A DNA stretch of 64,000 nt from assembly GCF_041227145.1 (NCBI RefSeq), contig NZ_JBGFSP010000003.1, positions 1,798,001-1,862,000 of the forward strand, in the 5' to 3' direction. The translations under genes were made by a program, and so were the position numbers. This document shows, piece after piece, positions 3,771 to 29,688 of the stretch. The DNA is from Bacteroides sp. AN502(2024) (GTDB lineage: Bacteria; Bacteroidota; Bacteroidia; Bacteroidales; Bacteroidaceae). The notes below the pieces were generated by a model. It did not search any database and was not told the origin of the DNA. It was given only the letters and a program-made list of their open reading frames with translations. How positions within the stretch are numbered: position 1 is the first letter of the stretch; the number at the start of each line of letters is the position of its first letter.

Positions 3771-3900
3771 CATTTTTATCTATGAGAGAATTGTGATTCC
3801 ATCTCATAAATTGAGAGAACAAACACTCTTTAAATGAAGAAGCCGTGGTATCCTGCTGGAATAAATCGCAAATCGTAATTCGTAATTCGTAATTATTCGC

Positions 3901-3908
3901 TATCTTTG
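3901..3908 (+). promoter_or_regulatory. -7 promoter element of DEAD-box helicase gene
   Basis: TATCTTTG matches the Bacteroides -7 consensus TAnnTTTG and lies 30 bp before the ATG. A triplicated CGTAATT motif sits directly upstream (about 3873-3894). No clear -33 TTG is seen. Confidence 0.6.
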
Positions 3909-3938
3909 CGCTCGAAATAAAAGATATACAGAGATTTA

Positions 3939-5867: not shown

Positions 5868-5883
5868 AAAGCAAGTAACCGAT

Positions 5884-5922
5884 AGGATGTGTCAAACGCA
5901 TTATGACACATCCTCATTTTTC
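5884..5922 (+). terminator. Rho-independent terminator after helicase gene
   Basis: Perfect 11-bp stem AGGATGTGTCA (5884-5894) / TGACACATCCT (5904-5914), 9-nt loop, then CATTTTTCT. It lies between two convergent genes. The GGATGTGTCA arm resembles the ends of the MITE-like element at 61789-61886. Confidence 0.75.
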
Positions 5923-6070
5923 TAATTACCGCTATTTTTCTAAGCTGTTCTCCTAAAAGTTTTACTTCCGGTCCTATCAGGGTGCATTGAATTTTTCCTT
6001 ATCAATACTCCATCCATCACCACGGTAGCATATCGTTTTAATTACTATTTTTCATTACCATCTCTTGGTT

Positions 6071-8212: not shown

Positions 8213-8231
8213 GCTATTATTTTTAGATTCA

Positions 8232-9593: not shown

Positions 9594-11086
9594 TTCTTCT
9601 TTATAAATCGATTGATAACAGGAATCTGACTCAATGGCAAATCCTTTTTGATAATATAAGCTATAAATAGCAATAAGAGTACGGTACGGAAAGCAAGACG
9701 GATCACTATATTAGATATAGGAGCCTGCTCTCCAATAACGTAGAGTACAGCTGCCAGCAGAACATAAAGTCCGAGGCTCTTCAAATCATACCGAATCGGA
9801 TATTCTTTCTGTCCTATCCAGTAAGATAGCAACAAGATGACTGCATAGCCTGCAACAGAAGCCCATGCCGAAGCAAGGTAACCGTAAATCGGAACAAACA
9901 GGATGTTCAACACGACAATAATAACACAACCAATCACCGAGAAGTAGGCTCCCCAATAGGTCTTATCTGTCAGTTTATACCAAAAGGAAAGATTGAAATA
10001 GATCCCTTTACAGATCTCTGCAAGCATTACAATAGCTACGACTCCCAGACCTTCCCAGTAGCCCCTTGCCACCAGATAACGCAACAAATCGAGATAGAAC
10101 ATGACAGCAAGGAAGGCCAGCAAGGAAAATATAAGAAAATACTTCATCGCAGCGGCATACATCTCCCGGTTGTCTCCTTCACGGTCTTTGCCAAAGACAA
10201 ACGGTTCGTAGGCATACCGGAAAGCTTGCGTAAACATTGCCATTACCATCGCAATCTTGCTGGTTGCGGCATAGATACCCAATTGCACCAACCCTTCCTG
10301 CCGGTCTTCATAAAGAAACGGATATATCATCTTATCCACAGTCTGGTTTAGAATACCTACCAAACCCAAGACTAATACCGGGAAAGAATATACGACCATT
10401 CGTTTCAGCAATCCTCGATCCAACTGATAAGCAAAACCCGTCAATTCCGGGATAAAGAAGAACATCTGGACAACCGAGACAATCAGATTACTAATAAAGA
10501 TATAGCCCACTAAATAATCCGGATCATAAAACCAGGAGATGGTCGACGGACAATGTACATTCAGCCACGGGCACACCAGCAGGAAAAATAAATTCAAGCC
10601 GATGCCACCAACGATAGAAAGCAGTTTGATGACTGCAAACTTGATGGGCCGTTTTTTATACCGTAAATAAGCAAAAGGGATGCATTGGAAAGAGTCTAAA
10701 GCTACCACAACAGCCATCATCGCTATGAACTCCGGATGATCGCCATAATCCAGTAAATCGGAAATAGGTTGCAGGAATAACAGGCAAAGGAGAACAAAAA
10801 TCAAAGAGACCCCTCCTACCGATAACAAGGAGTTGGCATATACTTTCATCGGGTCTTCTCCCGATTTATTGGCAAAACGGAAGAATCCCGTTTCCATACC
10901 GAACGTAAGCAGTACAAGCATCAAGGCTGTAAATGCATAAACGTTTGATACCACTCCATAACCTCCGGTGGAAGCCGGCAATACTGCTGTATACAAGGGT
11001 ACCAGCATATAGTTGAGGAATCGTCCGACAATACTACTCAACCCATAAATTGCAGTATCTTTAGCTAATGATTTTAGTCCAGCCAT
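9590..11086 (-). CDS. Wzx/MATE-type polysaccharide flippase
   Basis: A 498-residue protein with about 12-14 hydrophobic segments. It begins MAGLKSLAKDTAIYGLSSIVGRFLNYMLVP in outline, the usual start of the oligosaccharide flippase / polysaccharide biosynthesis family in Bacteroidetes. Such proteins move lipid-linked oligosaccharides across the inner membrane. It lies 65 bp after ruvB and overlaps the DUF389 gene by 4 bp. There are no glycosyltransferase genes beside it, so the glycan it handles is unknown and it is not part of a capsule locus here. Confidence 0.82.
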   Translation of the reverse strand: MAGLKSLAKDTAIYGLSSIVGRFLNYMLVPLYTAVLPASTGGYGVVSNVYAFTALMLVLLTFGMETGFFRFANKSGEDPMKVYANSLLSVGGVSLIFVLLCLLFLQPISDLLDYGDHPEFIAMMAVVVALDSFQCIPFAYLRYKKRPIKFAVIKLLSIVGGIGLNLFFLLVCPWLNVHCPSTISWFYDPDYLVGYIFISNLIVSVVQMFFFIPELTGFAYQLDRGLLKRMVVYSFPVLVLGLVGILNQTVDKMIYPFLYEDRQEGLVQLGIYAATSKIAMVMAMFTQAFRYAYEPFVFGKDREGDNREMYAAAMKYFLIFSLLAFLAVMFYLDLLRYLVARGYWEGLGVVAIVMLAEICKGIYFNLSFWYKLTDKTYWGAYFSVIGCVIIVVLNILFVPIYGYLASAWASVAGYAVILLLSYWIGQKEYPIRYDLKSLGLYVLLAAVLYVIGEQAPISNIVIRLAFRTVLLLLFIAYIIKKDLPLSQIPVINRFIKKK

Positions 11087-14201: not shown

Positions 14202-17200
14202 TCAGTTCTCCGACAGAAGTACGACTTCATCCCCCTTCTGTTGTGCGGCAAACATTTCAGCCAAAGAGTTGTATCTGGCGTGGTAAACGCGTCCATCCCG
14301 TTCATAGTGGAATGCCACCGGGTACCCATACCAGTTCAGGGGGTATTCCTTGCGCAAGCGCAATTCGTACTGCCCGACGGAAGGGATGTTCACGGCACCG
14401 ATGCGGTTGCTGTTGGTAGTACGCTCGAAAGCCACGAACGCATTGTCAGGTACCTCCTTCAGCGTACCGTCGTCGTCATCTCTGTATTTGATCGTTCCCT
14501 TGATCGATTCGTTGGTCACGCGGAACGTCTTGGCGTAGAACACCACCTTCTCCTCGTTGGAGGAGATGACAATGTCGCCCGCACTCACAATGCTGTTAAC
14601 GATAAACGGCAGAGTTTTGCGTTCGCCGGTCTGGTCTGCCAACCCGCTATCGTCTTTGTTCGCTACATCGTCCGTACCGTACTGCCGTTCAGTATCCCGA
14701 TTGATATCTGCCGTGTAAATGAAACGACCGAGAACCGAAGGGTCGGCTTTCAGCTTGGTTCCGTTCAGTTTATTTTCCGCCAGGCGCGACTCGTCGATCT
14801 TCAGCATCGGCGCATCGATGTAGATTTCGAAATGTTCTCCTCTGTCGAGATTGCCGAAAGAATCGGCAAATGGATGGACGGATACGGATTTACCGTTAAA
14901 TCCCCTGTGATGAAAACTTGTCACATCTATGGCAATGTCCACTTTCTGTTCGGGCTGGTAGGTCCATGTAAGGGGCGTAATCTTCTCCGGGATGTCGTTT
15001 CTGGTCGAAATACGGTCGGGTTCCTCGGCAGCCCCCGCCCAATCCTTGTCGGCATACTTCACCCGTGCACCGAATCGGAACGGATTGTAGTTATACAGCT
15101 CGAATGTCGTGCTTCGGTAAATCTCACCTTTATACAGGCCTGCCTCGTTGGCATCATCCGGAGCAACCGCGGGATAATGGTTCAAGTTGGAAGCGATACG
15201 GACCACCTCGGCACTCTTGGCCCGGTTGGTGTACATGTCAAGGCGGTATTTACCCGTCCCGCCACTCGAGGACGATGGATTTTGTGGTTTGAACATCAGC
15301 ATACGCCCGCCCTCCGGATTGTTCGCCTGCATCCACGCATCGGCCAGGGAATTATATTTCGAAAAGAGACAGTCGGGGGCAGTGATTTCACCGATTTCAT
15401 AATTGTAATTGTTCAGATGCTGCGTGTAGAACAGGAACTCGTCATTCGCTTTGGCATTGATCGCTTTACCCTGCACGTCGCCCATCTCGTCTCCTACTTT
15501 CGTCCGCAGCTGCATGTCGAACTGCACGTGGGCGTATTTTTTCTGCGGCACAACGCAATAATACACGTATTCATCTTTTGCCAAATCGTTGGTGCTCGCA
15601 ATCGCCGTGTATTTATCCAGATTTTCCACCGTTATGGAGTTGCGGGTGTCCGAGAATACGTAGGTACGCTTCATCGTCTCAAAATGTTCAGCCTCGATAT
15701 AAAGCGTCCCCTCGTACCCCGAAGACTGCGTCAGGATATTCTCGAAATAGACACGCTGCACGCCGGGAGATTCGACCCTGTAGACAAACTTGTAGTCCGG
15801 AGCCTGCGGGATGACGCCGCTACTGTACCACTCCGTGTCACCCTTGCGGACTATGGGCAATAACATGCCCGATGCGGCACGTATATCCAGCTCGCTGGCG
15901 GTGATGTATACATTCATCGGGAAGAGCTCCTCGGGACAGGTCTCGGGTATAGTAAACATCAGCGATACGTGGGGACGGTCGGTCTTCGGATCGTCCGAAT
16001 TTAGTCCTCCGTACACCGCCGTGCCGACCCACGAAGGGGCGAACGACTGTTTCTTGAGCAGAACGATCTTGATTTTACGTTGCAGCAGCCCGTGTTTCAC
16101 GAGTAACGTCCCCTCCTGTTTCTCGTTACCCCCCAGAGAACGCAACGAGATGATGATCGTACCTTTACCGACACCGTTCTCGATTTTGAACCCGCCACCG
16201 ATGCCTTGTGCCGCCACCGAGTTGTCCAGCCAGCTGATTTCGGGCTTGTCGGCTTCCGTTATCTCCGTTCCATTCTTGCCTGCAACGGTGTAGACAAACG
16301 TCCTCGTTCTTTCGCTTCCGATGTTGCTATCATCAAACACCTCATAGGTTTTATCAACCGTCAGGATGTAGTTTGTATCCTCCACTTCGTTCACGTCGTC
16401 GGAAATGGAGATCCAGACGTTGTTCGTGGCTGCTGCTGTCAAGGCGTCCTCGAAGGTAGGCTGTCCGAAGGAGAGCGCACCCGCGATGTGCAATATGTAG
16501 CGATGGTTTCTTCGCACCAGTATCTGGTCACCTTTTTCATCGACCAACATCACACGGTAGTACTTGTCGTCGGTCTCGCTTCCACCCGGGGCGTATCCGC
16601 GAATGATGATACTGACCGGATCATCGGAACGATTCTCCTGTTCGAAGATGTACTGGCTCGTGGCTGTGGTTACGTCCATGATATCGCTTTCCTTGGCATC
16701 CTTCTGCGGAAGCGTGACGAAGTCGTCGTTCATCCACTCGTCCAAAGTGAATGTGAAGCCCTTTTCCGGATGGTAAGGAGCCACCGTACCGAAAGCATTG
16801 ATGTTGTAGGCCGCCATTCCCGTTACCACGATAGCACCGTTAGTCGGATTGTCGATGGTAATCAACGCATGGTTGCGGAGCATCGTTATCTTGTTTCCTT
16901 TATCCGCCATCTGGCTGGCAATAGTCGTTTTCGTACCCTCCGCATCCGGTGTGCAGGCGAAACGTGCCCAGTAGATCATGTGACCCGCCGAACCTTCGAG
17001 AAGAGCCATCACCTCAGACTCCGATTTGTTGCGGAAGTGGTCTTCCTTGAAGTCGTTCATGTTCTGGTTGGCGACGAAATGCACTCTCCGGGTATTTTCG
17101 GGTACTTCGGCAGTAAATGTACCCGCCATGTTACCGGTCGATGAAACAGTTGCCGAAACTGTCGTGGTGAAGAGTCCGTAGCCATCGAAACAGAACAGCG

Positions 17201-17411
17201 TCATGTTCTGCACGCCACCCCCGTCGGGATCGACCGCACGTGTCGAGACACTCTGTACCTCCGGAACCGGAATATCAGCATTGAACCGGAGCGCCACGTA
17301 TCCTTTGCGGGCCTCGGGCAGCGTTTCCTGCCAATCGTCCTGCTGACAAGAGACAGACAACACTGCCACGGCGAGCAAGGATATCACTGTATGTATCGCT
17401 TTTTTTATCAT
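14202..17411 (-). CDS. Fimbrillin-like lipoprotein, large (putative pilus tip component)
   Basis: A 1069-residue exported lipoprotein. Its signal peptide ends in a lipobox with Cys22 (LSVSC). The sequence STRAVDPDGG gives an Arg58-Ala59 site after the first beta-strand-like stretch, the arrangement of type V pilins processed by a trypsin-like protease. The next part (QNMTLFCFDGYGLFTTTVSA) resembles fimbrillin beta-domains. The long C-terminal two thirds are beta-rich and not recognisable by eye; DUF4906-like architecture is possible. As last gene of the operon and the largest subunit it may form the tip adhesin. It is 26 bp from the upstream gene and GC-rich relative to its neighbours. Confidence 0.72.
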   Translation of the reverse strand: MIKKAIHTVISLLAVAVLSVSCQQDDWQETLPEARKGYVALRFNADIPVPEVQSVSTRAVDPDGGGVQNMTLFCFDGYGLFTTTVSATVSSTGNMAGTFTAEVPENTRRVHFVANQNMNDFKEDHFRNKSESEVMALLEGSAGHMIYWARFACTPDAEGTKTTIASQMADKGNKITMLRNHALITIDNPTNGAIVVTGMAAYNINAFGTVAPYHPEKGFTFTLDEWMNDDFVTLPQKDAKESDIMDVTTATSQYIFEQENRSDDPVSIIIRGYAPGGSETDDKYYRVMLVDEKGDQILVRRNHRYILHIAGALSFGQPTFEDALTAAATNNVWISISDDVNEVEDTNYILTVDKTYEVFDDSNIGSERTRTFVYTVAGKNGTEITEADKPEISWLDNSVAAQGIGGGFKIENGVGKGTIIISLRSLGGNEKQEGTLLVKHGLLQRKIKIVLLKKQSFAPSWVGTAVYGGLNSDDPKTDRPHVSLMFTIPETCPEELFPMNVYITASELDIRAASGMLLPIVRKGDTEWYSSGVIPQAPDYKFVYRVESPGVQRVYFENILTQSSGYEGTLYIEAEHFETMKRTYVFSDTRNSITVENLDKYTAIASTNDLAKDEYVYYCVVPQKKYAHVQFDMQLRTKVGDEMGDVQGKAINAKANDEFLFYTQHLNNYNYEIGEITAPDCLFSKYNSLADAWMQANNPEGGRMLMFKPQNPSSSSGGTGKYRLDMYTNRAKSAEVVRIASNLNHYPAVAPDDANEAGLYKGEIYRSTTFELYNYNPFRFGARVKYADKDWAGAAEEPDRISTRNDIPEKITPLTWTYQPEQKVDIAIDVTSFHHRGFNGKSVSVHPFADSFGNLDRGEHFEIYIDAPMLKIDESRLAENKLNGTKLKADPSVLGRFIYTADINRDTERQYGTDDVANKDDSGLADQTGERKTLPFIVNSIVSAGDIVISSNEEKVVFYAKTFRVTNESIKGTIKYRDDDDGTLKEVPDNAFVAFERTTNSNRIGAVNIPSVGQYELRLRKEYPLNWYGYPVAFHYERDGRVYHARYNSLAEMFAAQQKGDEVVLLSEN

Positions 17412-17437: not shown

Positions 17438-19705
17438 TTACTGATTAGCAGGCGTCTTGCCGTCGTAGGCATCGCGGATGCAGCGGATGGCAGGAGTTGC
17501 ATTTGGATCTGCTGTGAGGATGGGTTTAAGTATGGGACCCGATGCAGACCAATAGCGATCACCACTAAGAACTTTATCCATGGACGCCGATTCATCCTGA
17601 TATTTATAAATGATGTTTATTTCGGCTGCGGTCGGCAAGCGCCAGTCATCATAGATTACTCCGTTTCGTGAAACTTCTACATATTTTTCACAATGTTCTG
17701 CCACATCATTTACATTCATATCGGAATTTGCAAACACCCCTCCCAACTGCGATGCGATCATAAATGACGGAGACACTAACTGTGCGTTATCGGCATTTGG
17801 ATCGGTTTTACCCTCCGTAATACGAGGACGTCCCAAAGTGTAATTATTGGATGTGGCAGTTATGAATACATGATACATACGATGATTTTTCATGCTCGCC
17901 CAGTCTTCTTCTGCGTATGTGTCATATCTATACTGCCGCTGCCTACCATATTCTCTAGATGTTTCTCGCCAATAATAATAGTCAACAGAGCACAAACCGT
18001 CATCTGTGAAGCCTTGCGCAACCTTGGAACCGAAAAAAATTCCATTATAATCGTTTGTACCATTGTAGTATTCGTTGCTTTTCCATGAATAGCTGCATCT
18101 CCAATTATTTGAGGGAACTTGTCGACTGGAATACCATTGCCCCTTAGTAATCTTCTTTCCTGCAAGCAATTCCCACGTGGTAACGCCACGGTTTCCGTCA
18201 GAAGCCTCGCTCACAAAGTCATCACGATAAGAATACCAGCCTTCGATATTCGTGATATATACAAGCGGATATTGGTCGACTTTCACCGTACGCATCATGC
18301 CGTCATCATTCTTAACCTCGATGTCGATGTAACGTATCGTATTATTCTCCGGCACAGGGCTGTATATTTCGATGCCCCCATTCAGACCCGCTTCGGGCGT
18401 GAGCGTTATCTCTATCTTGTTGCGAATGGTTTGGCTTACCTCCTGCTCCTTTCCGAATTTGTCTATATAATATGCCCTCGTGACCTTAGCAGTGACATCC
18501 GATGACGACACAAACCGCAGGGTCGTGTTATCGGTCGCGATGTTGTGCATCTCCATTTGAGTCCTGTTAAGTGTCAGATATGCCGGACGATCGCCCTCGC
18601 CACCAATATTGATAGTCCTTTCGGACCACTCCTGCACGTCGTACGCTATATTCTCCAGTTTGGCCGGAGCCGACGGAGCGGTACCTCCGGGCACGTTGAG
18701 CGTCAAAGAGACCTGGTAGCAGGTATTACGCTTCAGCTCACTGCCCTCACAGACCGGGATCTGATAATAGTTGCTCTCACATAGTACGGCATCTCCGTCA
18801 GGATTACCGTCCGCATCCAGAGGAGTGTAAGTTATCGGGATATTCACGATCAGACGTATCTCCTTTTCCAATGCACTCAGGTTTTCCCACGAGTGAGCAT
18901 AGGCATACGCCGTTACGGTAATCTGGTTCTCGGTCCATTTGAAATAGGAAGTGTTAGTCTCTATAGTCGTCCGTAACTTCGCCTCACCGTCCACACCTGC
19001 CATCACGGAAGTAGAATAAGGCATGTTGCGCAGGTAGTAACTGGCACCGGAGGAATTGTTGAACGTTACGGATTCGCCCTTGTTGATCCGGATCACGAGT
19101 TTAGCAGCAGCCCGGCGCAACGTAACTTTCAGCTTCGTATCGTCCGACTTGTTCCCGTTGTTCAAAACTACCGTCCCGGCATCCGACGGTTCCGATTCGC
19201 CTTCAGGGTAGGCCGCACCATCCATCAAAAAGGTTTGAGGAATAGTAAGCCCCTCTAATTTCAGCCCCGTTACGTGTATGTATCGGTCTTCCTGCTTCAT
19301 CGCCCGCAACTTTTCCCTATCGAAATCTTCAGCAGCGAACTCCTCCTCGGCAACGGTGCTGTTAGCGATCAAGTAGACCCAGTATCTTGCGTCCATATCA
19401 AAACTGCTCCTTTTAGCCTTCAGAGCAATCGTTCCGCTACCGGTCTCACTTCCACCGATCCGTTCGTGCCACTTTTTGCCACCACCCTCATCGAAGATCA
19501 GCACATCGATATGGTCCACTCTGACTTCCGCTCCCGTGGCCTCCACACCCCGGCTCACGGGCAGTGACCCCGACGAGAGGTGAAGGATGATGCTGTTGCC
19601 ATCCCCTCCCGTGTTATCACCGGAAATGTCACACTCCTTATCGCAAGCGGCAAAAAACAGCACCGCCGAGCAACAGGCCATTATATATAAAATTATCTTT
19701 TTCAT
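17438..19705 (-). CDS. Fimbrillin-like lipoprotein with C-terminal FSL-like domain (putative tip adhesin)
   Basis: A 755-residue lipoprotein with lipobox Cys21 (FFAAC) and an Arg52-Gly53 site (LPVSRGVEA), followed by the fimbrillin-like VRVDHIDVLIFDEGG. The last 70 residues carry WRLPTAAEI (from 688), YWSAS (718-722) and AIRCIRD. This set resembles the Fibrobacter succinogenes major paralogous / DUF1566-type domain found at the C-termini of surface proteins. A C-terminal extra domain fits a tip or accessory pilin that does not polymerise. It lies 6 bp from the next upstream gene in a tight operon. Ligand unknown. Confidence 0.75.
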   Translation of the reverse strand: MKKIILYIMACCSAVLFFAACDKECDISGDNTGGDGNSIILHLSSGSLPVSRGVEATGAEVRVDHIDVLIFDEGGGKKWHERIGGSETGSGTIALKAKRSSFDMDARYWVYLIANSTVAEEEFAAEDFDREKLRAMKQEDRYIHVTGLKLEGLTIPQTFLMDGAAYPEGESEPSDAGTVVLNNGNKSDDTKLKVTLRRAAAKLVIRINKGESVTFNNSSGASYYLRNMPYSTSVMAGVDGEAKLRTTIETNTSYFKWTENQITVTAYAYAHSWENLSALEKEIRLIVNIPITYTPLDADGNPDGDAVLCESNYYQIPVCEGSELKRNTCYQVSLTLNVPGGTAPSAPAKLENIAYDVQEWSERTINIGGEGDRPAYLTLNRTQMEMHNIATDNTTLRFVSSSDVTAKVTRAYYIDKFGKEQEVSQTIRNKIEITLTPEAGLNGGIEIYSPVPENNTIRYIDIEVKNDDGMMRTVKVDQYPLVYITNIEGWYSYRDDFVSEASDGNRGVTTWELLAGKKITKGQWYSSRQVPSNNWRCSYSWKSNEYYNGTNDYNGIFFGSKVAQGFTDDGLCSVDYYYWRETSREYGRQRQYRYDTYAEEDWASMKNHRMYHVFITATSNNYTLGRPRITEGKTDPNADNAQLVSPSFMIASQLGGVFANSDMNVNDVAEHCEKYVEVSRNGVIYDDWRLPTAAEINIIYKYQDESASMDKVLSGDRYWSASGPILKPILTADPNATPAIRCIRDAYDGKTPANQ

Positions 19706-19711
19706 TGCTCA

Positions 19712-21304
19712 TCAGTCATTTATGGTGGATACATCCGTCTGTTTGATTACAATAACCTCGGGAAGGGTACTACCACTCCATTTCAGCTTGTCGGACAAAC
19801 CGTTGATAAGCAGCAAGGCACTGCCGGCGGAACTCCACTCTCGCGTGTAGGCTATGCCCAGCCCCACTTCTTTGTTCACGTTATCACTTTTCAAAGCCTT
19901 CACCGTGATATAATACGGGTCGGAGGAAGCTACGGGTTTTTCGATGTATTTTTTCGTCCCGTCGGACTGGAACTGATATACCTTCACCTCGAAGTTATCA
20001 GGCGTACCCAATTGCCCTACCAGCGTAGGAGTCCATTCCTGCCCGGTCGGGCCTTTGATCTCGAACCGGAACGTGTAGCTTCCCTCGTCGGAACTCCCGT
20101 CCGTATTGTACCATACTGTCGGTTGGGAATATTGTCCTCCGCTTCCCGGTGTAACGGCGACACTCCCCGGCTGTATCGGGTTCGTGTAATCCGGATAGTT
20201 GAACTCGATTACGTATTCGGGAGTTTCATTCCAATCGGCGACGCTGTACTCGACCGTTATCCTGCCATCGTTGTGCATCAGGCAACAGACCGCATAATAA
20301 TGGTTCCTCTCAATCTTCGGCATGTAGACATAACCGGTACGTGCCTCCCCGTCGAAGACATAGTCGATTTTAAGGACATACTCCTTACCGACACCCGGCA
20401 TGTTCCAACTGCCGCCGTTGCCCCACGGATTTTCGAAGGGATAGAACGGTTCGGCCATCACGGGTGTGTAGTTGGCGGGATTCCTTCTCTCATCTGCGGT
20501 GATACCTTCCGCCAGTTCACGCGTCACATCCCCCCCGATAACGGCAATGGGAATGTCGTCTGTGAAGTTTATGATCCCCTCCAACATGGTCTGCGTCGGT
20601 GTCATCAGGTAGTTGCGTGCCCGTGCACCCTGCATGGTGAGTCCCGTTACGCGCAGCATACCGGTTTCGCCGGCAGGCTTGGCTGCGAACACACCGATTT
20701 TAGCTACGGGCCGTTTTAGCTCGAATACAATGTCCGCATAGTCGAGCCATGCATGCCCTTCGTGTCCGGAGGCGGTCGGGGATTCCTGTTTCACCTTTGT
20801 GAAGTCGAGCGTTACCGAAGTCTTATCACAGAACATCGGCAGACCTTTCGCTTCCAGATCGGTCCTTAACAGATTGGAGAACCAGAAGTTTTTCAGCTGT
20901 TCCTCCGTCGTGTTCGCTGACAACACTGCGGGAGCACCCGAACCCGATGCCGACATCGCCGCCTCGTTGGCAACGGTGTAGAAATCCACCGTCTGCTCAC
21001 CGTCCGAGTAGAAAACGAGGTCCATGAAGAACGTGTGCGGAACCGCCGCCACATTATCGGTGAAATAATGTCCTGCCGCCTTTCCGTTGACAAAAGCATA
21101 CACGCGAAGCGTATGGATCGCTTTCTCGACATCGGTCGGTGCACCGTCGGCTTCGCTGACAGCACGTGTCCCCACGCTCAGCCGCACCGCTACATCGTGT
21201 CGCTCACCGAGTGTAGCGACGTCATCCTTAGCACACCCGAACAGCAGCGAGCCGCAGCATACCACCGCGACAGCCATGTAAAGTATCTTTCTTATATTCC
21301 GCAT
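19712..21304 (-). CDS. Fimbrillin family lipoprotein (accessory pilin)
   Basis: A 530-residue lipoprotein with lipobox Cys24 (LLFGC) and an Arg47-Ala48 site (LSVGTRAVS), followed by the typical fimbrillin opening VEKAIHTLRVYAFVNG. A second half contains IERNHYYAVCCLMHNDGRI, the sequence type seen in FimA/Mfa-like proteins before the last strands. It is longer than a standard stalk pilin (about 350-400 residues), so it is probably an accessory or tip-proximal subunit. It lies 12 bp downstream of the anchor gene and 6 bp upstream of the 755-residue subunit gene. Confidence 0.75.
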   Translation of the reverse strand: MRNIRKILYMAVAVVCCGSLLFGCAKDDVATLGERHDVAVRLSVGTRAVSEADGAPTDVEKAIHTLRVYAFVNGKAAGHYFTDNVAAVPHTFFMDLVFYSDGEQTVDFYTVANEAAMSASGSGAPAVLSANTTEEQLKNFWFSNLLRTDLEAKGLPMFCDKTSVTLDFTKVKQESPTASGHEGHAWLDYADIVFELKRPVAKIGVFAAKPAGETGMLRVTGLTMQGARARNYLMTPTQTMLEGIINFTDDIPIAVIGGDVTRELAEGITADERRNPANYTPVMAEPFYPFENPWGNGGSWNMPGVGKEYVLKIDYVFDGEARTGYVYMPKIERNHYYAVCCLMHNDGRITVEYSVADWNETPEYVIEFNYPDYTNPIQPGSVAVTPGSGGQYSQPTVWYNTDGSSDEGSYTFRFEIKGPTGQEWTPTLVGQLGTPDNFEVKVYQFQSDGTKKYIEKPVASSDPYYITVKALKSDNVNKEVGLGIAYTREWSSAGSALLLINGLSDKLKWSGSTLPEVIVIKQTDVSTIND

Positions 21305-21316
21305 ATTCTTTCGGTC

Positions 21317-22216
21317 TTAAAATTCGGGTTTCACATGTTCGATGTACCATTCGGGTACGCTTACCGTGATCTCTCCCGACTTGAATTCGATGCGTATCGG
21401 GATGAGCACCTCGTGTTTGGAACAGTCTATGACGGGATTGTCGGCAAGGAACTTCGCGAGGTTGACTTCCGCCAGCAACTCACCACCGGGAGCGGAACGC
21501 AGGTAGACATTCACGTTCTCGTGGTCCTTATGCCGCATTATATTGGTACGGGCCGTTAGCAATCCGGCCTTGTATTCGGTTTCAAGCAAATAATCGGTCG
21601 CCTCTCCGTAGGCACGGTTTTCGAAATCGGTGCAGGGCGAGACTCCGCATATTTCCAGCACAGGCATCATGCCTGCGCGGTTTCCCGTGGCGGGAACTCC
21701 GGCCACTTCCACCAGCAGGTCGTAGTGAGAGCTGGCGAACTCTATAATTTGAGTCTGGTCGTCCTCTTCACGACCATTGTATGGCAGCACGGTGTAAGAG
21801 GTGGTAGCATAATAGAGCGAATCATTGCCGCTGACCTGCTTCCGGTCGAAATAATCACCGGCGGCGAAGAGCATCCGGTCGTAATCGCCCGTAGCGAGAC
21901 CCTCGACCTTCGTGTCATGGGTGTTCCCCAGACAGATAATCCGGTAATCACCGGGAGTCAGCGGGGGAAGCGTAGCCGTGCGGCTCTCAACTTGTTCCTT
22001 GGGTAAGATACTCGAATTGACGCATCGATTCTCTGCATCGAAAACGAACATCTCCACCCGGCAGATCTTGTCGGGGAATATCTCCGTAGTACCGTCACCC
22101 TTGTAGCTGAGCAGCAACCGGTTGGTGCTCAAACAGTCGTCCAGATCCTCACGGATGCAGGAAGTGGCGACTCCCGCGAGCAACGTCAGGCAGAAAACAA
22201 TATTCGTCAATTTCAT
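21317..22216 (-). CDS. FimB/Mfa2-family pilus anchor
   Basis: A 299-residue lipoprotein with lipobox Cys20 (VATSC). It matches the Mfa2/FimB family: CLSTNRLLLSYKGDG and CRVEMFVFDAENR near the start, LPPLTPGDYRIICLGN for the usual pressure strand, and a late EVLIPIRIEFKSGEI block. In P. gingivalis these proteins anchor the pilus to the outer membrane and limit its length. Unlike the neighbouring pilins it has no Arg-X site soon after the lipobox, consistent with a lipid-retained anchor. A stable hairpin (22242-22276) separates it from the stalk gene upstream. Confidence 0.82.
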   Translation of the reverse strand: MKLTNIVFCLTLLAGVATSCIREDLDDCLSTNRLLLSYKGDGTTEIFPDKICRVEMFVFDAENRCVNSSILPKEQVESRTATLPPLTPGDYRIICLGNTHDTKVEGLATGDYDRMLFAAGDYFDRKQVSGNDSLYYATTSYTVLPYNGREEDDQTQIIEFASSHYDLLVEVAGVPATGNRAGMMPVLEICGVSPCTDFENRAYGEATDYLLETEYKAGLLTARTNIMRHKDHENVNVYLRSAPGGELLAEVNLAKFLADNPVIDCSKHEVLIPIRIEFKSGEITVSVPEWYIEHVKPEF

Positions 22217-22288: not shown

Positions 22289-23446
22289 TTAAAATTCGGG
22301 AGTAACGGGAACGACCGTCCAGTTTGCAACCTTCACGTTCAGTTCCACGCAACGCTCGGGCTGCGAAAGATTTTCATCATCGAACGTAAAGAATACCCGG
22401 TAAATCTTGCCCGACACAAAAGGATCTTTGCTCGTAAATTTACCGTGCAGGTAAAGAGGTGTAGAAGCATTGTCTGCGGTATTGCCACGCAATGCCAGCA
22501 GCAACTCGGGGTTGTTAGTACTGCTCTCTACGTGCGCCAAACCGTAAGTGATAATTCCGGTAGCCTCTTCTCCATCCTCATTAGGATCGGTAATGGTCGT
22601 ACCGTCCACGAACTTCTTATCTCCGGGCTCTAGTGACAAATTGAGGGCATCACACCAATCAGTACGATTTTCGATCCATGTCCATGCAGTTTCTTTCGTA
22701 GGATTATCCCAAACCTTACCGTCCTCCTCAGGAGTCTTAGTCACGAAATCATATTGCGTGTAATAGTGGTTCAACGCAATCTTCTCCAATGCAACAGAAG
22801 TGTACTTGTTCGTGGCAGGAGCTGTTGCCTGCTGATACTCGAATCCGTAGATTTCGAAACGAGATACACGCGGTTCCAGTGTTACGGTTGCCGTATAAAC
22901 ATTCTCATGATTGGCAACATCTTGCTTCGGTTCAGTAGTTTTCTCTGTAAGTTCACTATCACCGTACAGAGAGTAGGTAGGATGTCCGGCTTCGGTATCA
23001 TTCGGTACAGCTTCAGTTTTGGCTGCAAGAGTAGAGTATTCCACATTACCGATGTTACCCACTACAACTACTTTAGAAGTTGCGGCAGGGAGAAAGTGGT
23101 AGGTAATGTCCTTCCCTTGTTCCCCTATTGCTGACCATGAACCGTCGGTAGCGTCACTGCTGAAATAAGTCTGCTGCTCGCTACCTTCATATTTGGGAAC
23201 CGTCTGTACATTGCCGTTAGCATCCACGAAGAATACCTTGAAATTTTTCAGCTCTACTTGTGAGTTGTTAGCCATCGCGTCACCCGTGGAACGTACGCTC
23301 GGGGTCTTTTGGATATTAGGCAACTTGATCGTCACGCTTTTGGGCATCTTGTCCGAATTCGGATTGTCCAGATTCTCGCTTTTGTCACAAGCGACAAGCG
23401 TCATTGAGGCTGCAAAAGCCGTCAAAAGAAAACTTTTAATGTTCAT
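22289..23446 (-). CDS. Mfa1-family major fimbrillin (pilus stalk)
   Basis: A 385-residue lipoprotein, the usual length of a type V stalk pilin. Lipobox Cys20 (TLVAC) is followed by KSVTIKLPNIQ and an Arg52-Ser53 site (TPSVRSTGDAM). Then comes QVELKNFKVFFVDANGN, the fimbrillin core opening, and SRFEIYGFEYQ near the domain boundary. The C-terminus CVELNVKVANWTVVPVTPEF in outline matches the final strand of Mfa1/FimA proteins. In this family protease removal of the N-terminal strand lets subunits polymerise by strand exchange. Its position as the first structural subunit, with a hairpin after it, fits the major pilin. Confidence 0.85.
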   Translation of the reverse strand: MNIKSFLLTAFAASMTLVACDKSENLDNPNSDKMPKSVTIKLPNIQKTPSVRSTGDAMANNSQVELKNFKVFFVDANGNVQTVPKYEGSEQQTYFSSDATDGSWSAIGEQGKDITYHFLPAATSKVVVVGNIGNVEYSTLAAKTEAVPNDTEAGHPTYSLYGDSELTEKTTEPKQDVANHENVYTATVTLEPRVSRFEIYGFEYQQATAPATNKYTSVALEKIALNHYYTQYDFVTKTPEEDGKVWDNPTKETAWTWIENRTDWCDALNLSLEPGDKKFVDGTTITDPNEDGEEATGIITYGLAHVESSTNNPELLLALRGNTADNASTPLYLHGKFTSKDPFVSGKIYRVFFTFDDENLSQPERCVELNVKVANWTVVPVTPEF

Positions 23447-23498: not shown

Positions 23499-24983
23499 TT
23501 ATAGTTGGTCAATGACCCGACGCACCGCTTCGAGGTTATGACGGGCAGTTTCGGACCCAGCCTCCGAAGCCTTCCGGAACGTTTCCTCCGCCTTGCCATA
23601 TTCTCCGGCTTCGGCGTATGCCACGCCCAAGGTATTGAGCAGTACCGCTGTTCGTGCAGTAACTTCCGCCTTTTCGAGCAACTCAATCGCCACGGTGTAC
23701 TTTTGGTGGAAGATGGCGTTTACGGCATTCTCGTTCAACGCGGCAGGTGAAGAAGGGAAGCAGCGCATAGCCACCCCCATCACCTTATCATATTCGGGTG
23801 TACCTTTGCCGTAAGAGGAGGCCACCTTGTACATCTCAGTCAGGCTCAACAGGTCGGGACGCTCGTCGACCATGCGGCGAGCCTCTTCGAGGTTGAAGTT
23901 GCGCACGTTATACTCCACGCGATACTCATTGCGACGTAGCACGGGATATATTTCGGTGAGCAATTGATGATAGATGGTTGACGGGGCGAGCTTCCGAAAT
24001 TGCTGCTCGCAGAAATCCCGCCGGTTCGGGTAGCGCTCGATGAGTTCGTACACCTCGTCACGTTTCGGCAGTTCCGGGCAATCACCGAGTATATGGATGA
24101 ACCCTTCCCAGTCCTCGCCCTTCCAGTCCACATGCAGTATGTCTGCCGCGATGGCGTCGTGACGACGGATATAGTCCGCCAGTGCTTTGGCGCGGTTCTC
24201 CGACAACGTCATGTTATGTGCCTCGCTACCCTCGGGAGAGGCGTACCCGGTAATGTAAATACCGATAATCTTGACATCGGAGTTTTTCTTTACCAGTTCA
24301 ATCGAATTCGATACCGTGTCCAGTTCGGCACGGTTATTCTTGAAATCGGGCAGAATCTTGTAGCTGTCCTGCCGGAACTGTAAACGCGCGGTACGGGTTT
24401 CGGCACGCACTTTCACAGGTTCGGGTTCCGGGGCAATAGTGTCGATCTTGTAGTCGGGGACATAGGCAGGCAGCACACCGGTCCACAAGTCCCGTTCGGA
24501 TTTACCCTCGCCGCAGTTCGTGCAGCCATGTACCTCCTCACGGATTTCGACCCGCCCGTCGAGCATCCAACGCTCGTAGGGCACCGATGCGGTGTAGTCG
24601 TAATCCTGCTGTTTGCCGTTGCGGCGGCGAATGATTACCCGTGCCGCATCATCATGATAAGGGGGAAGCTCCACGCTTTCGAGACGTCGGGCACGCAGGT
24701 AAACTTTGTTGCGGGTTTTCCCGTCGATCACTATCGGGGGAAAGGCTACCTCACGGTCACCGTTCGCGGAGACAAGTACGGGTGTCAGCGCCACGGTATG
24801 TTGCGTGCGGATGTTCGCATTGCTCAAATCGACGTTCATCGTCAGCTCTACCTTGCGACCCTGCTTGACGACACCTCCTTGACGAATTCCGATCGAAGAG
24901 AGGTAACTTGGTTGGTTTTCGGCATGTAACGCTATGGGGCTACAAGCCAATATCAGTAATAATATGGTATATATGCGTTTCAT
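23499..24983 (-). CDS. DUF3868 / OmpA-like / TPR pilus-associated outer-membrane protein
   Basis: A 494-residue exported protein with a cleavable signal (ALHA before ENQPSYL). The N-terminal about 150 residues look like DUF3868 (IRQGGVVKQGRKVELTMNVD). The middle carries an OmpA-like peptidoglycan-binding motif (IYITGYASPEGSEAHNMTLS, then ENRAKALADYIRR). The C-terminal 90 residues look like TPR helices (LLNTLGVAYAEAGEYGKAEE). DUF3868 proteins accompany type V pilus loci and are thought to act at the outer membrane or cell wall. It lies 13 bp from the DUF3575 gene and 52 bp from the stalk gene. Confidence 0.8.
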   Translation of the reverse strand: MKRIYTILLLILACSPIALHAENQPSYLSSIGIRQGGVVKQGRKVELTMNVDLSNANIRTQHTVALTPVLVSANGDREVAFPPIVIDGKTRNKVYLRARRLESVELPPYHDDAARVIIRRRNGKQQDYDYTASVPYERWMLDGRVEIREEVHGCTNCGEGKSERDLWTGVLPAYVPDYKIDTIAPEPEPVKVRAETRTARLQFRQDSYKILPDFKNNRAELDTVSNSIELVKKNSDVKIIGIYITGYASPEGSEAHNMTLSENRAKALADYIRRHDAIAADILHVDWKGEDWEGFIHILGDCPELPKRDEVYELIERYPNRRDFCEQQFRKLAPSTIYHQLLTEIYPVLRRNEYRVEYNVRNFNLEEARRMVDERPDLLSLTEMYKVASSYGKGTPEYDKVMGVAMRCFPSSPAALNENAVNAIFHQKYTVAIELLEKAEVTARTAVLLNTLGVAYAEAGEYGKAEETFRKASEAGSETARHNLEAVRRVIDQL

Positions 24984-24996
24984 TGTCTTTCCGTTG

Positions 24997-25572
24997 TTAT
25001 TTAATAATGTATATCAGAGATACTCCCGCCTTGGTCGGTCCGAAGTAGTGCTTGTCGTTATTACCCTTGAACTTACCGCAAGTGGCGCACTCGTACTTAT
25101 CGTAATTCGTGTAGATATAACCCAACCCGAGGGTCGCCTCGAGGCTCCAGCGTTCGCCTAAAATCCACGAATACCCGTACGAAAGTCCGACACCCGTAGC
25201 CCAGCCTTGATAACGATGTTCTTTCGTGGATTTGTCCTGGAACAGGACTCTCACGCCACTGATATTGTAGAAAGCATAGCCGCTATGCAGACCGAAAAAG
25301 TGGCCGTTATAGCGTTCGCAGAGCCAGTAGCGAAATTCCGGCATGACCAGCCAGTGCTTGATTTTCTTGTTACTGTCCTTGTTCAGCGTCCATGGGTTGT
25401 AGGCTCCCGTGAGATCGAGGGTCGTGTGTTTGCCCAACCCGAATTCAAGACTCAAGTTAGGCGTGGTACTTGACCAATATAACAGATTGGTCTTTGCTGC
25501 GATATCCTGCGCGTTGGCGGTGCCTGCACACCAGCAAACGGCAAGGAAAACACCGAGGATGATTCTTTTCAT
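24997..25572 (-). CDS. DUF3575 outer-membrane beta-barrel-like protein, first gene of pilus operon
   Basis: A 191-residue protein with a signal peptide (cleavage after GTANA). It has alternating beta-strand sequence (LLYWSSTTPNLSLEFGLG, GHFFGLHSGYAFYNISG, GVGLSYGYSWILGERWSLE) of the DUF3575 family, seen in pilus and OmpA-type loci of Bacteroides. It probably forms a small outer-membrane barrel. It is the promoter-proximal gene: the invertible segment starts 128 bp upstream of its ATG. Two Cys in CATCGKF may form a disulphide. Its exact role in pilus export is not known. Confidence 0.78.
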   Translation of the reverse strand: MKRIILGVFLAVCWCAGTANAQDIAAKTNLLYWSSTTPNLSLEFGLGKHTTLDLTGAYNPWTLNKDSNKKIKHWLVMPEFRYWLCERYNGHFFGLHSGYAFYNISGVRVLFQDKSTKEHRYQGWATGVGLSYGYSWILGERWSLEATLGLGYIYTNYDKYECATCGKFKGNNDKHYFGPTKAGVSLIYIIK

Positions 25573-25665
25573 ATCTTCTTCTTTCTTGTTATCTCATTAA
25601 AACCGGCAAAGCCAACGATACCATTATGTATAAAGGGGATTTATCGTCCTGTCGTTTTTTACGCT

Positions 25666-25691
25666 TCGGGAGATACTTCACACTCTCCCGA
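25666..25691. promoter_or_regulatory. Hairpin in pilus operon leader, next to invertible segment
   Basis: 8-bp stem TCGGGAGA (25666-25673) / TCTCCCGA (25684-25691), 10-nt loop. In the plus sense it is followed by TTTTATACTT, so it could stop rightward transcription entering the invertible segment. In the minus sense it would sit in the 5' leader of the pilus mRNA. Confidence 0.45.
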
Positions 25692-25699
25692 TTTTATAC

Positions 25700-25913
25700 T
25701 TCTCTCTGTAAGAGATATATATCAGGAAAAATCAAGTCATAATTAGCTAATAAACAGTAGTAGAATAGATTATCCGAAGTAGGAATTTGTTCAACATTTG
25801 ATGCATAACTTCGAATAAAGTCGAAAATAATTATAAAAAATAGCCTATTTTTACGCCTTATTTCCAATATTTTTTGTAATTTCGCAAATAATATATATCT
25901 CTTACAGAGAGAA
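25700..25913. promoter_or_regulatory. Invertible promoter segment (inverton) upstream of pilus operon
   Basis: A perfect 23-bp inverted repeat bounds a 168-bp AT-rich segment: left arm 25700-25722 (begins TTCTCTCTGTAAGAGATA), right arm 25891-25913 (ends CTCTTACAGAGAGAA). Each arm contains a small dyad, TCTCT-TAC-AGAGA, as expected for a site-specific recombinase site. Inside, next to the right arm, lies a -7-like box pointing rightward, away from the pilus operon. Inversion would turn it to face the operon. This is the standard layout of phase-variable promoters in Bacteroides. No recombinase gene is in the window, so the enzyme would act in trans. Confidence 0.85.
25877..25884 (+). promoter_or_regulatory. 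Putative -7 element inside the inverton (rightward in this orientation)
   Basis: TAATTTCG differs from TAnnTTTG at one position and is followed by CA. It ends 6 bp before the right repeat arm, so transcription would start in or near the arm. No clear -33 TTG is seen at the expected distance, so the promoter call is moderate. Confidence 0.5.
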
Positions 25914-25960
25914 CGAAGTTTCTACTCAACAGATATTCCGTTCTTGTCATTTCTCTTTCT

Positions 25961-26161
25961 ATGAGAAATAAACAGCACTTACTTTTCTATAAATCAATAT
26001 ATTACATAAACAAAGAATTTGGTTTACTCAGCATTTTCTCTTATTTCGTAGTCTCATGTTTTTGCATAGAAAGGGAGACTTGTTATGTTGCAGGCTTTCT
26101 GACTGTAAACATTTATCAGTTCAGTAGAAAATTAGTGGTGATAAATTCTGTCTTAATCTGA
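25961..26161 (+). CDS. Small ORF downstream of the inverton (doubtful)
   Basis: A 66-codon ATG ORF (MRNKQHLLFYKSIYYINK start) with a hydrophobic middle (GLLSIFSYFVVSCFCIE). It begins about 70 nt after the start expected from the inverton promoter in the sequenced orientation, so it could be transcribed in the pilus-OFF state. The composition is AT-rich and no family is recognised. It may be chance. Confidence 0.2.
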   Translation: MRNKQHLLFYKSIYYINKEFGLLSIFSYFVVSCFCIERETCYVAGFLTVNIYQFSRKLVVINSVLI

Positions 26162-26394
26162 AAAATTGGAGATGGTAAGGCATCCAATAATATGTATATG
26201 AATTGTTCGATCCGGTACTGAAGCAATCCGAATCCTCCTACTAATTACAGTCAAATCTCCCACTAACTATTAAAAAGAAAAACCGCCTTCAGCCTTCAGT
26301 TCTTCACCAAAGTCCCTGTTCATCGGCGTTTGAGCCTGAAAGCACTCCTGAAAGCTAATGTGTATAACTCCGGCTCCTTCTATACTTATTTCCA

Positions 26395-26477
26395 ACAGAG
26401 GCTCTATTATAGCAAAACAAAGCCTGCATTTCATGGTAACAGAGCCTCTGTTATAACCAAACAGAGCCTACATTTCA
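26395..26477 (+). repeat. Two imperfect 39-bp direct repeats with palindromic core
   Basis: Units at 26395-26433 and 26439-26477 both start ACAGAG and end with CATTTCA. The second unit includes the palindrome TAACAGAG-C-CTCTGTTA. It is intergenic. The surrounding 26162-26866 otherwise shows no gene. Confidence 0.6.
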
Positions 26478-26866
26478 CCTCACAATAGATAGGTCTACCG
26501 GCAAGTCTGAAAAAAAAGCTGAAGGCAGATTATAGTATGAAAATTTAATAAGAATATGATTAGATCTATATTAATGTCGGAATTAAAAACCTTAAATTCT
26601 CAACACAAATAACAGATCGCAATGAACTTATCTATTTCAACTGATAATTGGATTTGCCCTGGTATTATTCACGCACTCTTCCTGATGGCTAAACCCGAAC
26701 AAAGGGGATGCTGCTAACACTGAAGCAACGCTTGCTACCCCCCCTGCTCCCACTCCATACTGATTTAGGTGTCTCGTTGACGAATTCGCAAAATGATCTG
26801 ACATCCGCAAGCAAATGTCAGAGAATTCAGTCAATGAGTACACGTCTCTCTCATACAAAAAAACGA

Positions 26867-26983
26867 AAATCCTCTTTCAACCTATCACCGTCTTCCTGAA
26901 ACTCCTTATTCATCGTATTTACAGAGCGGTGATAGGTTGTCACTAACCTATCACCTCATCTATCACCTATCACCGCCTATTTT
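26867..26983 (+). repeat. Dispersed repeat, copy C
   Basis: Nearly identical to the reverse complement of copy B, and close to copy A. It has the same GGTGATAGGTT / AACCTATCACC stem and CCTATCACC iterations. It is followed at once by an array of the AACAAAGTG type. Confidence 0.85.
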
Positions 26984-27020
26984 CCTATAGTAAACAGTCA
27001 TTTAAAACATTTTGTGTCTT

Positions 27021-27153
27021 GAACAAAGTGTTCCACCGTGTTGAAACAAAGTGTTCAGCGCTTTGAAACAAAGTGTTCCACCGTGTTGGAACAAAGTGTT
27101 CAGCGCCTTGGAACAAAGTGTTTCAAGCTATTGAAACATCTTGAAACAAATCG
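27021..27153. repeat. Tandem 22-23-bp repeat array, inverted relative to the 3.4-kb array
   Basis: Five AACAAAGTG cores start at 27022, 27045, 27067, 27090 and 27112. The end (TTGAAACATCTTGAAACAAA) is the reverse complement of the array flank at about 3419-3439 apart from rare changes, so the whole copy C plus array is an inverted duplicate of the left composite. Confidence 0.85.
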
Positions 27154-27205
27154 CATTCTCTGCAAAAAGGCACAAAAAAAGAGCGAATCATTCCGCTCCA
27201 CCTTT

Positions 27206-27235
27206 AAAGAATCCCCTTAATGGGATTCTTTTTTT
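27206..27235. terminator. Hairpin terminator, usable on both strands
   Basis: 10-bp stem AAAGAATCCC (27206-27215) / GGGATTCTTT (27222-27231), 6-nt loop, then a T run. No annotated plus-strand gene precedes it, so it may insulate mnmG or end transcription from the repeat region. From 27240 to 27760 the DNA is AT-rich with four CTAATACCT copies (27274, 27322, 27343, 27371) and no gene. Confidence 0.6.
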
Positions 27236-27766
27236 CATCTTTCATTTACTCGTTACCTGAAAACTACTTTCTACTAATACCTAATCAAAACAATCTTTTT
27301 CTTAAAAACTAATCTTAAAATCTAATACCTTAATTTTATAAACTAATACCTTTCGTATATTACCTTTTTTCTAATACCTAAAAATCTTAGTAGTTTCATT
27401 ATTACGCTGCAAAGTTATAGCTGTTTCAAAAAAAAGACAAGGGCTATGATCGAAAAAATCAAATTTCAACCTGCTTTTTTGATTTATGTCAAGACAAAAG
27501 ACAAATTTAACACTTATCGTTCTAGTTTCATTCGTACTCCGGTCGATTTTCAACTAACAAAAAGCAAGTATAATCCCCCTATTTTAAAACAAAAACATGC
27601 ATTTTAAAAGAGAACAGAGACATATAGATTCAATAAAGTCCACAAACGCCGAACAGCCTGCACATTTTCGAACCGAAATTACGACGATTTTTCAAAGAAG
27701 TCGGACAGCTCCTCGGATTTTCAGAAGCAAAAAGAGCATGGAGATATATTTCTCGCAACTTTTCCG

Positions 27767-27774
27767 TAACTTTG
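27767..27774 (+). promoter_or_regulatory. -7 promoter element of mnmG; decides the start codon
   Basis: TAACTTTG is a perfect TAnnTTTG. It overlaps the TTG that a long-ORF reading would use as start (27772), so translation must begin at the ATG at 27802, leaving a leader of about 20 nt. Confidence 0.7.
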
Positions 27775-27801
27775 CACCGTTTGATAATAAATAAGACAGG
27801 A

Positions 27802-29688
27802 ATGGATTTTAAGTACGATGTAATTGTAATTGGTGCCGGACATGCTGGTTGCGAAGCAGCGGCCGCTGCTGCAAATTTAGGTTCCAAGACTTGCCTCATC
27901 ACGATGGATATGAACAAGATTGGACAAATGAGTTGCAACCCTGCCGTAGGCGGAATTGCGAAAGGACAAATAGTACGCGAAATAGATGCACTGGGCGGAC
28001 AGATGGGATTGGTGACGGACGAAACAGCCATCCAGTTTCGAATACTGAACCGTTCGAAAGGTCCCGCCATGTGGAGCCCCCGTGCCCAATGCGACCGCGC
28101 CAAGTTTATCTGGTCCTGGCGGGAAAAATTGGAGAATACGCCCAATCTTCATATCTGGCAAGATACGGTATGCGAACTTCTCGTTGAAAACGGTATAGTG
28201 ACCGGACTGGTTACCGTGTGGGGGGTTACTTTCAGGGCAAAATGTGTTGTCCTCACCGCAGGAACTTTCCTTAACGGATTGATGCACGTAGGACGATACC
28301 AGTTGCCGGGAGGAAGAATGGCAGAACCGGCTTCTTACAAATTAACCGAATCCATCGCTCGCCATGGCATCACTTACGGAAGAATGAAAACCGGAACCCC
28401 GGTACGAATCGATGCGCGCAGCGTTCATTTCGACCAGATGGAAACGCAGGACGGAGAATGTGACTTCCATAAGTTCTCCTTCATGAACACAAGTGTGCGC
28501 CACTTGAAGCAACTGCAATGCTGGACTTGCTATACGAACGAAGAGGTACACCAGATTCTACGTGACGGATTGCCGGATTCCCCCCTATTCAACGGGCAAA
28601 TTCAAAGCATCGGTCCACGTTATTGCCCGAGCATCGAAACAAAGATTGTGACCTTCCCTGACAAGGCCCAGCATCAATTGTTCCTCGAACCGGAAGGTGA
28701 AACAACGCAGGAATTATATCTCAACGGATTTTCCTCTTCACTTCCGATGAACATACAAATTGACGCTTTAAAGAAAATTCCCGCTTTCAAAGATTTGGTG
28801 ATCTATCGCCCGGGATATGCAATTGAATATGATTATTTCGATCCGACGCAGCTAAAGCATACGCTGGAATCGAAAATTATCGGCAACTTATTCTTTGCCG
28901 GACAGGTAAATGGTACTACCGGATACGAAGAAGCAGGCGGACAAGGATTGATAGCCGGAATCAATGCGCACATCAATTGTCACGGAGGTAAATCCTTCAC
29001 ACTGGCACGCGATGAAGCATATATTGGCGTATTAATCGACGATTTGGTAACCAAAGGTGTCGATGAGCCTTATCGGATGTTTACTTCACGTGCAGAGTAT
29101 CGTATATTGCTCCGGATGGACGATGCCGATATGCGCCTGACTGAACGTGCTTATAAACTCGGACTGGCTAAGGAGAACCGATATCAATTAATGAAAAGCA
29201 AGAAAGAAGCGGTGGAACAGATCATTTCTTTCACCCATGATTATTCGATGAAACCGGCATTAATTAATGATGCACTCGAAAAGATAGGGACTACCCCCCT
29301 ACGTCAAGGATGCAAACTGATAGAAATTCTGAACCGCCCACAAGTGACGATTGAAAATATCTCGAAATATGTTCCGGCATTTCAACGCGAACTGGATAAA
29401 GCTACCGATTCCAACCAGGACCGTAAAGAGGAGATTCTGGAAGCTGCCGAAATTCTAATCAAATATCAAGGATATATCGATAGAGAACGAATGATAGCAG
29501 AAAAACTGGCAAGACTTGAAAGCATCAGAATCAAAGGTAAATTTGATTATGCTTCCATCCAGTCGTTATCGACAGAAGCCCGACAAAAACTAATAAAGAT
29601 AGATCCGGAAACAATTGCTCAAGCGAGCAGAATCCCGGGAGTATCGCCAAGCGATATCAACGTACTACTGGTACTTTCCGGGCGATAA
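27802..29688 (+). CDS. mnmG: tRNA uridine-5-carboxymethylaminomethyl modification enzyme MnmG (GidA)
   Basis: A 628-residue FAD protein that, with MnmE, modifies the wobble uridine (cmnm5U34) of several tRNAs. The dinucleotide-binding GAGHAG is at residues 11-16, and the family blocks CNPAVGGIAKG, GTFLNGLMHVG, AGQVNGTTGYEEAGGQG and the C-terminal IPGVSPSDINVLLV are all present. The start at 27802 is chosen because a -7 promoter box covers the upstream TTG. It leads the run mnmG, apt, uvrC. A parS-like palindrome lies 8 bp after its stop. Confidence 0.97.
   Translation: MDFKYDVIVIGAGHAGCEAAAAAANLGSKTCLITMDMNKIGQMSCNPAVGGIAKGQIVREIDALGGQMGLVTDETAIQFRILNRSKGPAMWSPRAQCDRAKFIWSWREKLENTPNLHIWQDTVCELLVENGIVTGLVTVWGVTFRAKCVVLTAGTFLNGLMHVGRYQLPGGRMAEPASYKLTESIARHGITYGRMKTGTPVRIDARSVHFDQMETQDGECDFHKFSFMNTSVRHLKQLQCWTCYTNEEVHQILRDGLPDSPLFNGQIQSIGPRYCPSIETKIVTFPDKAQHQLFLEPEGETTQELYLNGFSSSLPMNIQIDALKKIPAFKDLVIYRPGYAIEYDYFDPTQLKHTLESKIIGNLFFAGQVNGTTGYEEAGGQGLIAGINAHINCHGGKSFTLARDEAYIGVLIDDLVTKGVDEPYRMFTSRAEYRILLRMDDADMRLTERAYKLGLAKENRYQLMKSKKEAVEQIISFTHDYSMKPALINDALEKIGTTPLRQGCKLIEILNRPQVTIENISKYVPAFQRELDKATDSNQDRKEEILEAAEILIKYQGYIDRERMIAEKLARLESIRIKGKFDYASIQSLSTEARQKLIKIDPETIAQASRIPGVSPSDINVLLVLSGR

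Follow-up and report, generated by a model that had tools for sequence, protein, structure and literature searches.

A probable invertible promoter upstream of a type V pilus operon in Bacteroides, with a recombinase likely acting in trans

Phase-variable fimbriae are known in Bacteroides. The available text of PMC12632263 cites a surface-protein/fimbrial locus of B. fragilis that varies in phase through tyrosine recombinases (Weinacht et al. 2004) and states that the binding targets of type V pili in gut Bacteroidota are mostly unknown. Also in B. fragilis, a single tyrosine recombinase, Tsr19 (BF2766), serves both a local and a distant promoter of the form TAnnTTTG, and the local promoter was OFF in culture media and in most faecal samples tested, according to the available sections of PMC4747536. 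Sequencing reads of defined strains placed invertons of gut Bacteroidota preferentially before fimbrillin-family genes, with the direction of nearby invertases precluding their transcription from the promoter (available part of PMC11892184). Invertible promoters before antibiotic-resistance genes of Bacteroidales (IP-ARG) were predominantly ON in 4 of 96 cases (available part of PMC8748976).

The locus described here lies in the window, the whole stretch of 64,000 nucleotides of Bacteroides DNA that was analyzed, and is a further case of such phase-variable fimbriae; its special features are a missing neighboring recombinase and a rule that its recombination sites obey. It resembles the B. fragilis fimbrial locus, as far as PMC12632263 describes it, in that DNA inversion by a tyrosine recombinase would control outer-surface/fimbrial genes; it differs in species and locus and in having no adjacent recombinase. 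Tsr19 is similar in its TAnnTTTG promoter and local OFF bias, and unlike the window locus it controls exopolysaccharide genes and another cluster (PMC4747536, in part). The inverton groups of PMC11892184 are alike in fimbrillin placement and invertase direction. IP-ARG shares a switch just downstream of its invertase and the scarcity of predominantly ON cases, has one class with two adjacent switches, and differs in cargo (PMC8748976, in part).

We consider it quite probable that a 168-bp segment of the window is an invertible promoter (inverton) that confers phase variation on a type V pilus operon, with an enzyme likely supplied in trans. An earlier note on this DNA had proposed an invertible promoter, and this interpretation is supported by inverted segments in relatives and by a recombinase family that co-occurs with the sites.

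The inverted repeat, its promoter and the pilus operon

As previously noted, a perfect inverted repeat surrounds 168 nt. Its arms, each of 23 nt and 100% complementary, occupy 25700-25722 (operon side, plus strand) and 25891-25913 (far side, minus strand) and enclose a segment at 25723-25890 to which no strand is assigned. The repeat lies just ahead of the first gene, and the leader between the arm and the first pilus ATG (25573-25699, minus strand) measures 127 bp. Each arm had also been credited with a TCTCT-TAC-AGAGA dyad. Relatives preserve the register TCTCT-N5-AGAGA, with CTGTA as N5 in the window, and because their spacer is 5 bp long we dropped the 3-bp-spacer dyad as a recombinase site. 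The site core TCTCT-CTGTA-AGAGA lies at 25701-25715 in the operon-side arm and at 25898-25912 in the far arm, and the CTGTA center is identical in both, in inverted orientation. No exact second copy of the arm occurs in the 4.8-Mb genome, and a 16-nt arm core with up to two mismatches found one further genome match compared with three for a reversed-pattern control. Mononucleotide shuffling of upstream regions produced arms of at least 15 nt in none of 880 trials.

Promoters were located with a weight matrix built from 45 promoters of other invertons, each within 45 bp of an arm; the window was excluded from its construction. A -7 box, TAATTTCG, at 25877-25884 on the plus strand is the sole strong match in the segment. 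It scores 23.5, the next best match scores 7.9 and the matrix members themselves score 12.4-36.8; none of 1000 shuffles of the segment reached its score. Between 25400 and 27800 a single other match exceeded 8.5, one of 11.7 at 27767 ahead of gidA; 100 shuffles of this 2.4-kb region reached at most 15.4, and the leader held no match above 6. The description of a lone promoter-like box near the operon, inside the segment and facing away, was accurate. The box deviates from TAnnTTTG at one base. In 44 of 45 invertons of relatives the promoter lies 3-16 bp from an arm, in a search limited to the 45 bp next to an arm. The window locus shows the arrangement by which an inverton is recognized, a promoter ahead of a gene and between inverted repeats. 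Because the promoter is directed away from the operon, the sequenced orientation of the switch is OFF. The earlier note had called the molecule locked OFF; the OFF orientation stands for the assembly, whereas "locked" is not supported, given perfect arms and two intact family recombinases elsewhere in the genome.

The operon runs on the minus strand from an ATG at 25572 and comprises seven co-directional reading frames, all open, with intergenic gaps of 6-72 bp. It begins with a DUF3575 protein (24997-25572; PF12099, 252 bits) and a DUF3868/OmpA-domain protein (23499-24983; PF12984 and PF00691). These are followed by a 385-aa protein (22289-23446), an Mfa2-type anchor pilin (21317-22216; PF08842, 123.8 bits), a FimA-like pilin (19712-21304; PF06321, 23.7 bits with a cut-off of 21.4, its FimD likeness falling below cut-off), a FimD-type tip adhesin (17438-19705; NF052322, 541 bits with a cut-off of 170) and, last in the cluster, a 1069-aa protein (14202-17411). 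Searches of Pfam, NCBIfam and PDB sequences at E 0.001 matched neither the 385-aa nor the 1069-aa protein. Anchor (PF08842), stalk-type (PF06321, just above cut-off) and tip (NF052322) pilins stand together in one operon, which marks it as type V and bears out its previous description as a seven-gene type V pilus operon behind the repeat.

The window operon aligns to its B. finegoldii and P. coprocola counterparts at 75-80% DNA identity in stretches of 2.3-2.4 kb, interrupted across most of the third gene. Similarity stops close to where the first gene begins (window 25719 and 25599), and the inner segments of these two species had no match to that of the window at E 1e-4. Judged from these alignments, switch and operon appear to evolve separately.

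Recombination sites and inversion among relatives

Alignment of loci revealed a common site, TCTCT-N5-AGAGA, with a 5-bp center. Among 13 DUF3575 relatives in named genomes, four have such sites (in B. finegoldii, Phocaeicola coprocola, a Porphyromonadaceae bin and a Muribaculaceae bin), two have another repeat and seven have none of at least 12 nt. The repeats of the four loci follow the same plan just upstream of DUF3575 with different bases, and G012, a genome of the same genus as the window, likewise carries a repeat of this plan upstream. That many DUF3575 operons go without such a repeat weighs against the inverton interpretation. Across 30 DUF3575 matches examined, two of them with less than 100 bp upstream, the site type was absent except in the window and B. 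finegoldii. Bacteroides sp. 519 (L017) was left out of the family, since its repeat is of another kind and its recombinase is more distantly related (34-38% identical).

A search of 158 Bacteroides genomes at a core spacing of 165-195 bases (up to 300 in the search of neighborhood loci) found 47 TCTCT-N5-AGAGA pairs in 33 genomes and none for a reversed-pattern control. The window genome contains one strict pair, namely that of the window. The centers of the two arms were identical in 44 of the 47 pairs, whereas 10,000 shuffles of partners averaged 2.9 and never exceeded 10; 23 different 5-bp centers were represented. The three unmatched pairs come from G019, G026 and G080, and those of G019 and G026 pair sites of neighboring switches. 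Fixed half-sites around a center that is free to vary but matched between arms are what a tyrosine recombinase requires. The window center differs from that of G012 by one base, with the same change in both arms.

Tandem double switches occur at single loci (L055, 6156-6417; L012, 4303-4498; L078; L083; L109; L113; L133) and would be consistent with a need for differing centers in such tandems. A separate repeat type, GTTAC...GTAAC, stands inverted upstream of DUF3575 at L039, L042, L043, L048, L050 and L052, its copies 280-289 bp apart in four of these six; it suggests that pilus switches are also served by another type of recombinase.

Comparison of inner segments by local alignment found both orientations. 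The segment of the window aligns with that of G132 in inverted orientation (score 99, compared with 29 direct and a shuffle maximum of 39; 76% over 100 bp) and with that of G012 directly (126, compared with 29 inverted; 72% over 163 bp). G012 and G132 are inverted relative to each other (118 inverted, 18 direct) between flanks that match on both sides (78% over 852 bp and 73% over 353 bp). The same holds for G036 and G048 (143 inverted, 29 direct), whose flanks are 88% identical on both sides. L102 (G039) and L104 (G002) are also mutually inverted (133 inverted, 22 direct), but their flanks match solely on the side of the recombinase. By blastn, the 1.5-kb flanks of the window had no match to G132 on either side and none to G012 beyond 51 bp on the far side, so the orientation of the window rests on gene order (the DUF3575 side) and these 51 bp, which weighs against the inverton interpretation. 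The earlier note had proposed comparing orientation in related genomes; run across species, this comparison found the inverted form, both between the window and G132 and in three species pairs, so that the refuting outcome named in the note, a lack of related genomes in the inverted orientation, did not arise. The genomes compared belong to different species; at the level of sequence comparison the three pairs indicate that segments of this kind invert, and present-day inversion in the window's own species is presumed. A 25-base query from the inner segment found no match to the inverted form in viral contigs.

Recombinases near and far, and competing explanations

In P. coprocola, G012 and the Muribaculaceae bin, the far arm is followed by a tyrosine recombinase. 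Members of its family (E <= 1e-100) are present in 62 of the 158 Bacteroides genomes: 30 of the 33 with site pairs compared with 32 of the 125 without (Fisher p 6e-12, relatedness ignored). We sampled the neighborhoods of 30 loci from the site-pair genomes (one per genome, 30 of the 33) and of 30 loci from a longer list of recombinase matches. In these sampled loci, 40 recombinase matches lie within 2.5 kb of an inverton; every one of them faces the switch, at a distance of 19-680 bp, and 14 of the 40 end within 50 bp of the arm; some invertons in this count share an enzyme and one enzyme is counted twice. Because some other family invertons also have no recombinase in the sampled flanks, an adjacent enzyme is usual rather than strictly defining. 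Near two family recombinases there is a relaxase gene (PF03432; L013, 1371-4622; L075, 5418-8414), hinting that switch enzymes derive from or travel with mobilizable elements.

No family recombinase or recognizable remnant was found beside the window switch, where 25914-27771 gave chance-level matches only. The window genome does encode family members. The closest, at G000:C12:60500-61705, is 62% identical to the adjacent recombinase of G012, and the next, at G000:C3:1481423-1482622, is 55% identical; both are full-length, have no stops and keep the R, RH and GH...Y motifs. Because no site pair was detected beside either enzyme, where transposase genes are found, their presumed site preference is read from relatives 55-67% identical. 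With the adjacent recombinase missing and two intact relatives elsewhere, switching of the window locus in trans by the C12 or C3 recombinase is likely. In B. finegoldii, too, the sites have no family recombinase in the surrounding 10.6 kb, and the same contig carries a family member at a distance of about 86 kb. The C12 region also holds a second pilus-type cluster of the same genome that begins with DUF3575 and has its own family recombinase (L074, G000:C12:57000-76500, at 3471-9615). The C12 recombinase is upstream of this other DUF3575 gene, with PD-(D/E)XK and rve/HTH transposase genes now in between.

Beyond the far arm, 51 bp (25917-25967) are alike in G012, where G012 has a site of a second, tandem inverton; the likeness of the window to the far flank of G012 ends after these 51 bp. 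Within them, 25951-25967 (plus strand) reads TTCTCT-TTCTA-TGAGAA, which appears to be the remaining, decayed site of a second, neighboring switch. Much of the 2.2-kb non-coding gap before gidA consists of dispersed repeats (26121-26587 and 26785-27155) with 82 matches in the genome, the window copy included. At several places the second repeat is split into halves that run in opposite orientations, and a short tandem array with a 22-45 bp unit (AACAAAGTGTTC...) lies within the repeat region at 27018-27138. Rfam at gathering thresholds returned nothing for 25400-27900.

We propose that a tyrosine recombinase of this family binds the TCTCT/AGAGA half-sites of both arms and that strand exchange within the matching CTGTA centers, a position in the site that we infer, would turn the 168 bp round. 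In the present orientation the promoter would fire away from the operon (OFF); after inversion it would fire across the arm at 25700 into DUF3575 and the six further genes (ON), so that the turned promoter presumably drives the pilus genes. The enzyme, often encoded just past the far arm and facing the switch in relatives and gone from the window, would most likely come in trans from C12:60500-61705 or C3:1481423-1482622.

The most serious competing explanation is that the switch is dead: a former inverton, frozen OFF when its adjacent recombinase was lost, leaving the pilus genes silent or under a different promoter. Several features would fit such decay, namely the absence of recombinase and remnant beside the segment, the dispersed repeats that begin at 26121 where relatives carry the recombinase, the decayed site of the neighboring second switch, and a -7 box one base off consensus. 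Yet both arms are still perfect over 23 bp, with the same single-base difference from G012 in each, and all seven pilus frames are open. Two intact family recombinases remain in the genome, and B. finegoldii likewise combines sites with a recombinase about 86 kb distant. We therefore regard a dead switch as unlikely, though the likeliest of the competitors.

The same repeat might instead serve a dimeric repressor that binds the two palindromes and loops the DNA with no recombination, as the dyad within each arm would allow. A repressor would not need a center that varies by locus yet matches between arms; nor does it account for inner segments inverted between relatives with matching flanks, or for a tyrosine recombinase adjoining the switch in many relatives, and we hold this explanation to be very improbable. 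There is equally little probability, in our view, that the segment is a small mobile element with terminal inverted repeats whose position ahead of the operon is accidental. It is short and sits between inverted repeats, and species differ in their switch although large parts of the operon are 75-80% identical in DNA; but it is single-copy in the genome, and in relatives the repeats separate the recombinase from the target gene, and 44 of 45 promoters sit 3-16 bp from an arm. An invertible promoter remains our preferred explanation.

Predominance of the OFF orientation

The sampled loci contain 54 distinct invertons, 40 of which could be scored: 36 are OFF and 4 are ON (L084 in G132, L102, L126 and L118). 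In the other 14 the promoter side or the target side was indeterminable. An automatic rule scored 38 of the 40 (35 OFF, 3 ON); the remaining two were added by hand, the window (OFF) on the strength of the weight matrix and L118 (ON) on that of its inner site pair. When grouped by sequence, 27 clusters are OFF only, 1 is ON only, 3 are mixed and 10 are unscored (31 scorable). The excess of OFF has a binomial p of 2e-7, relatedness ignored.

The adjacent recombinase genes of the sampled loci all face the switch, and an OFF-oriented promoter would therefore fire antisense into the recombinase gene. It is conceivable, if rather doubtful, that the OFF state reinforces itself in this way. Were this so, recombinase expression would be lowered in OFF cells only, which could account for the 36 of 40 OFF, and loci without an adjacent recombinase, such as the window, would have lost the feedback and should switch differently.

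The site rule, fixed half-sites with a private 5-bp center matched between arms, finds switches and scores their orientation from assemblies alone, and the comparison makes both the OFF bias and trans-acting recombinases testable. A switch that is mostly OFF would help to explain why type V pili are hard to see in culture.
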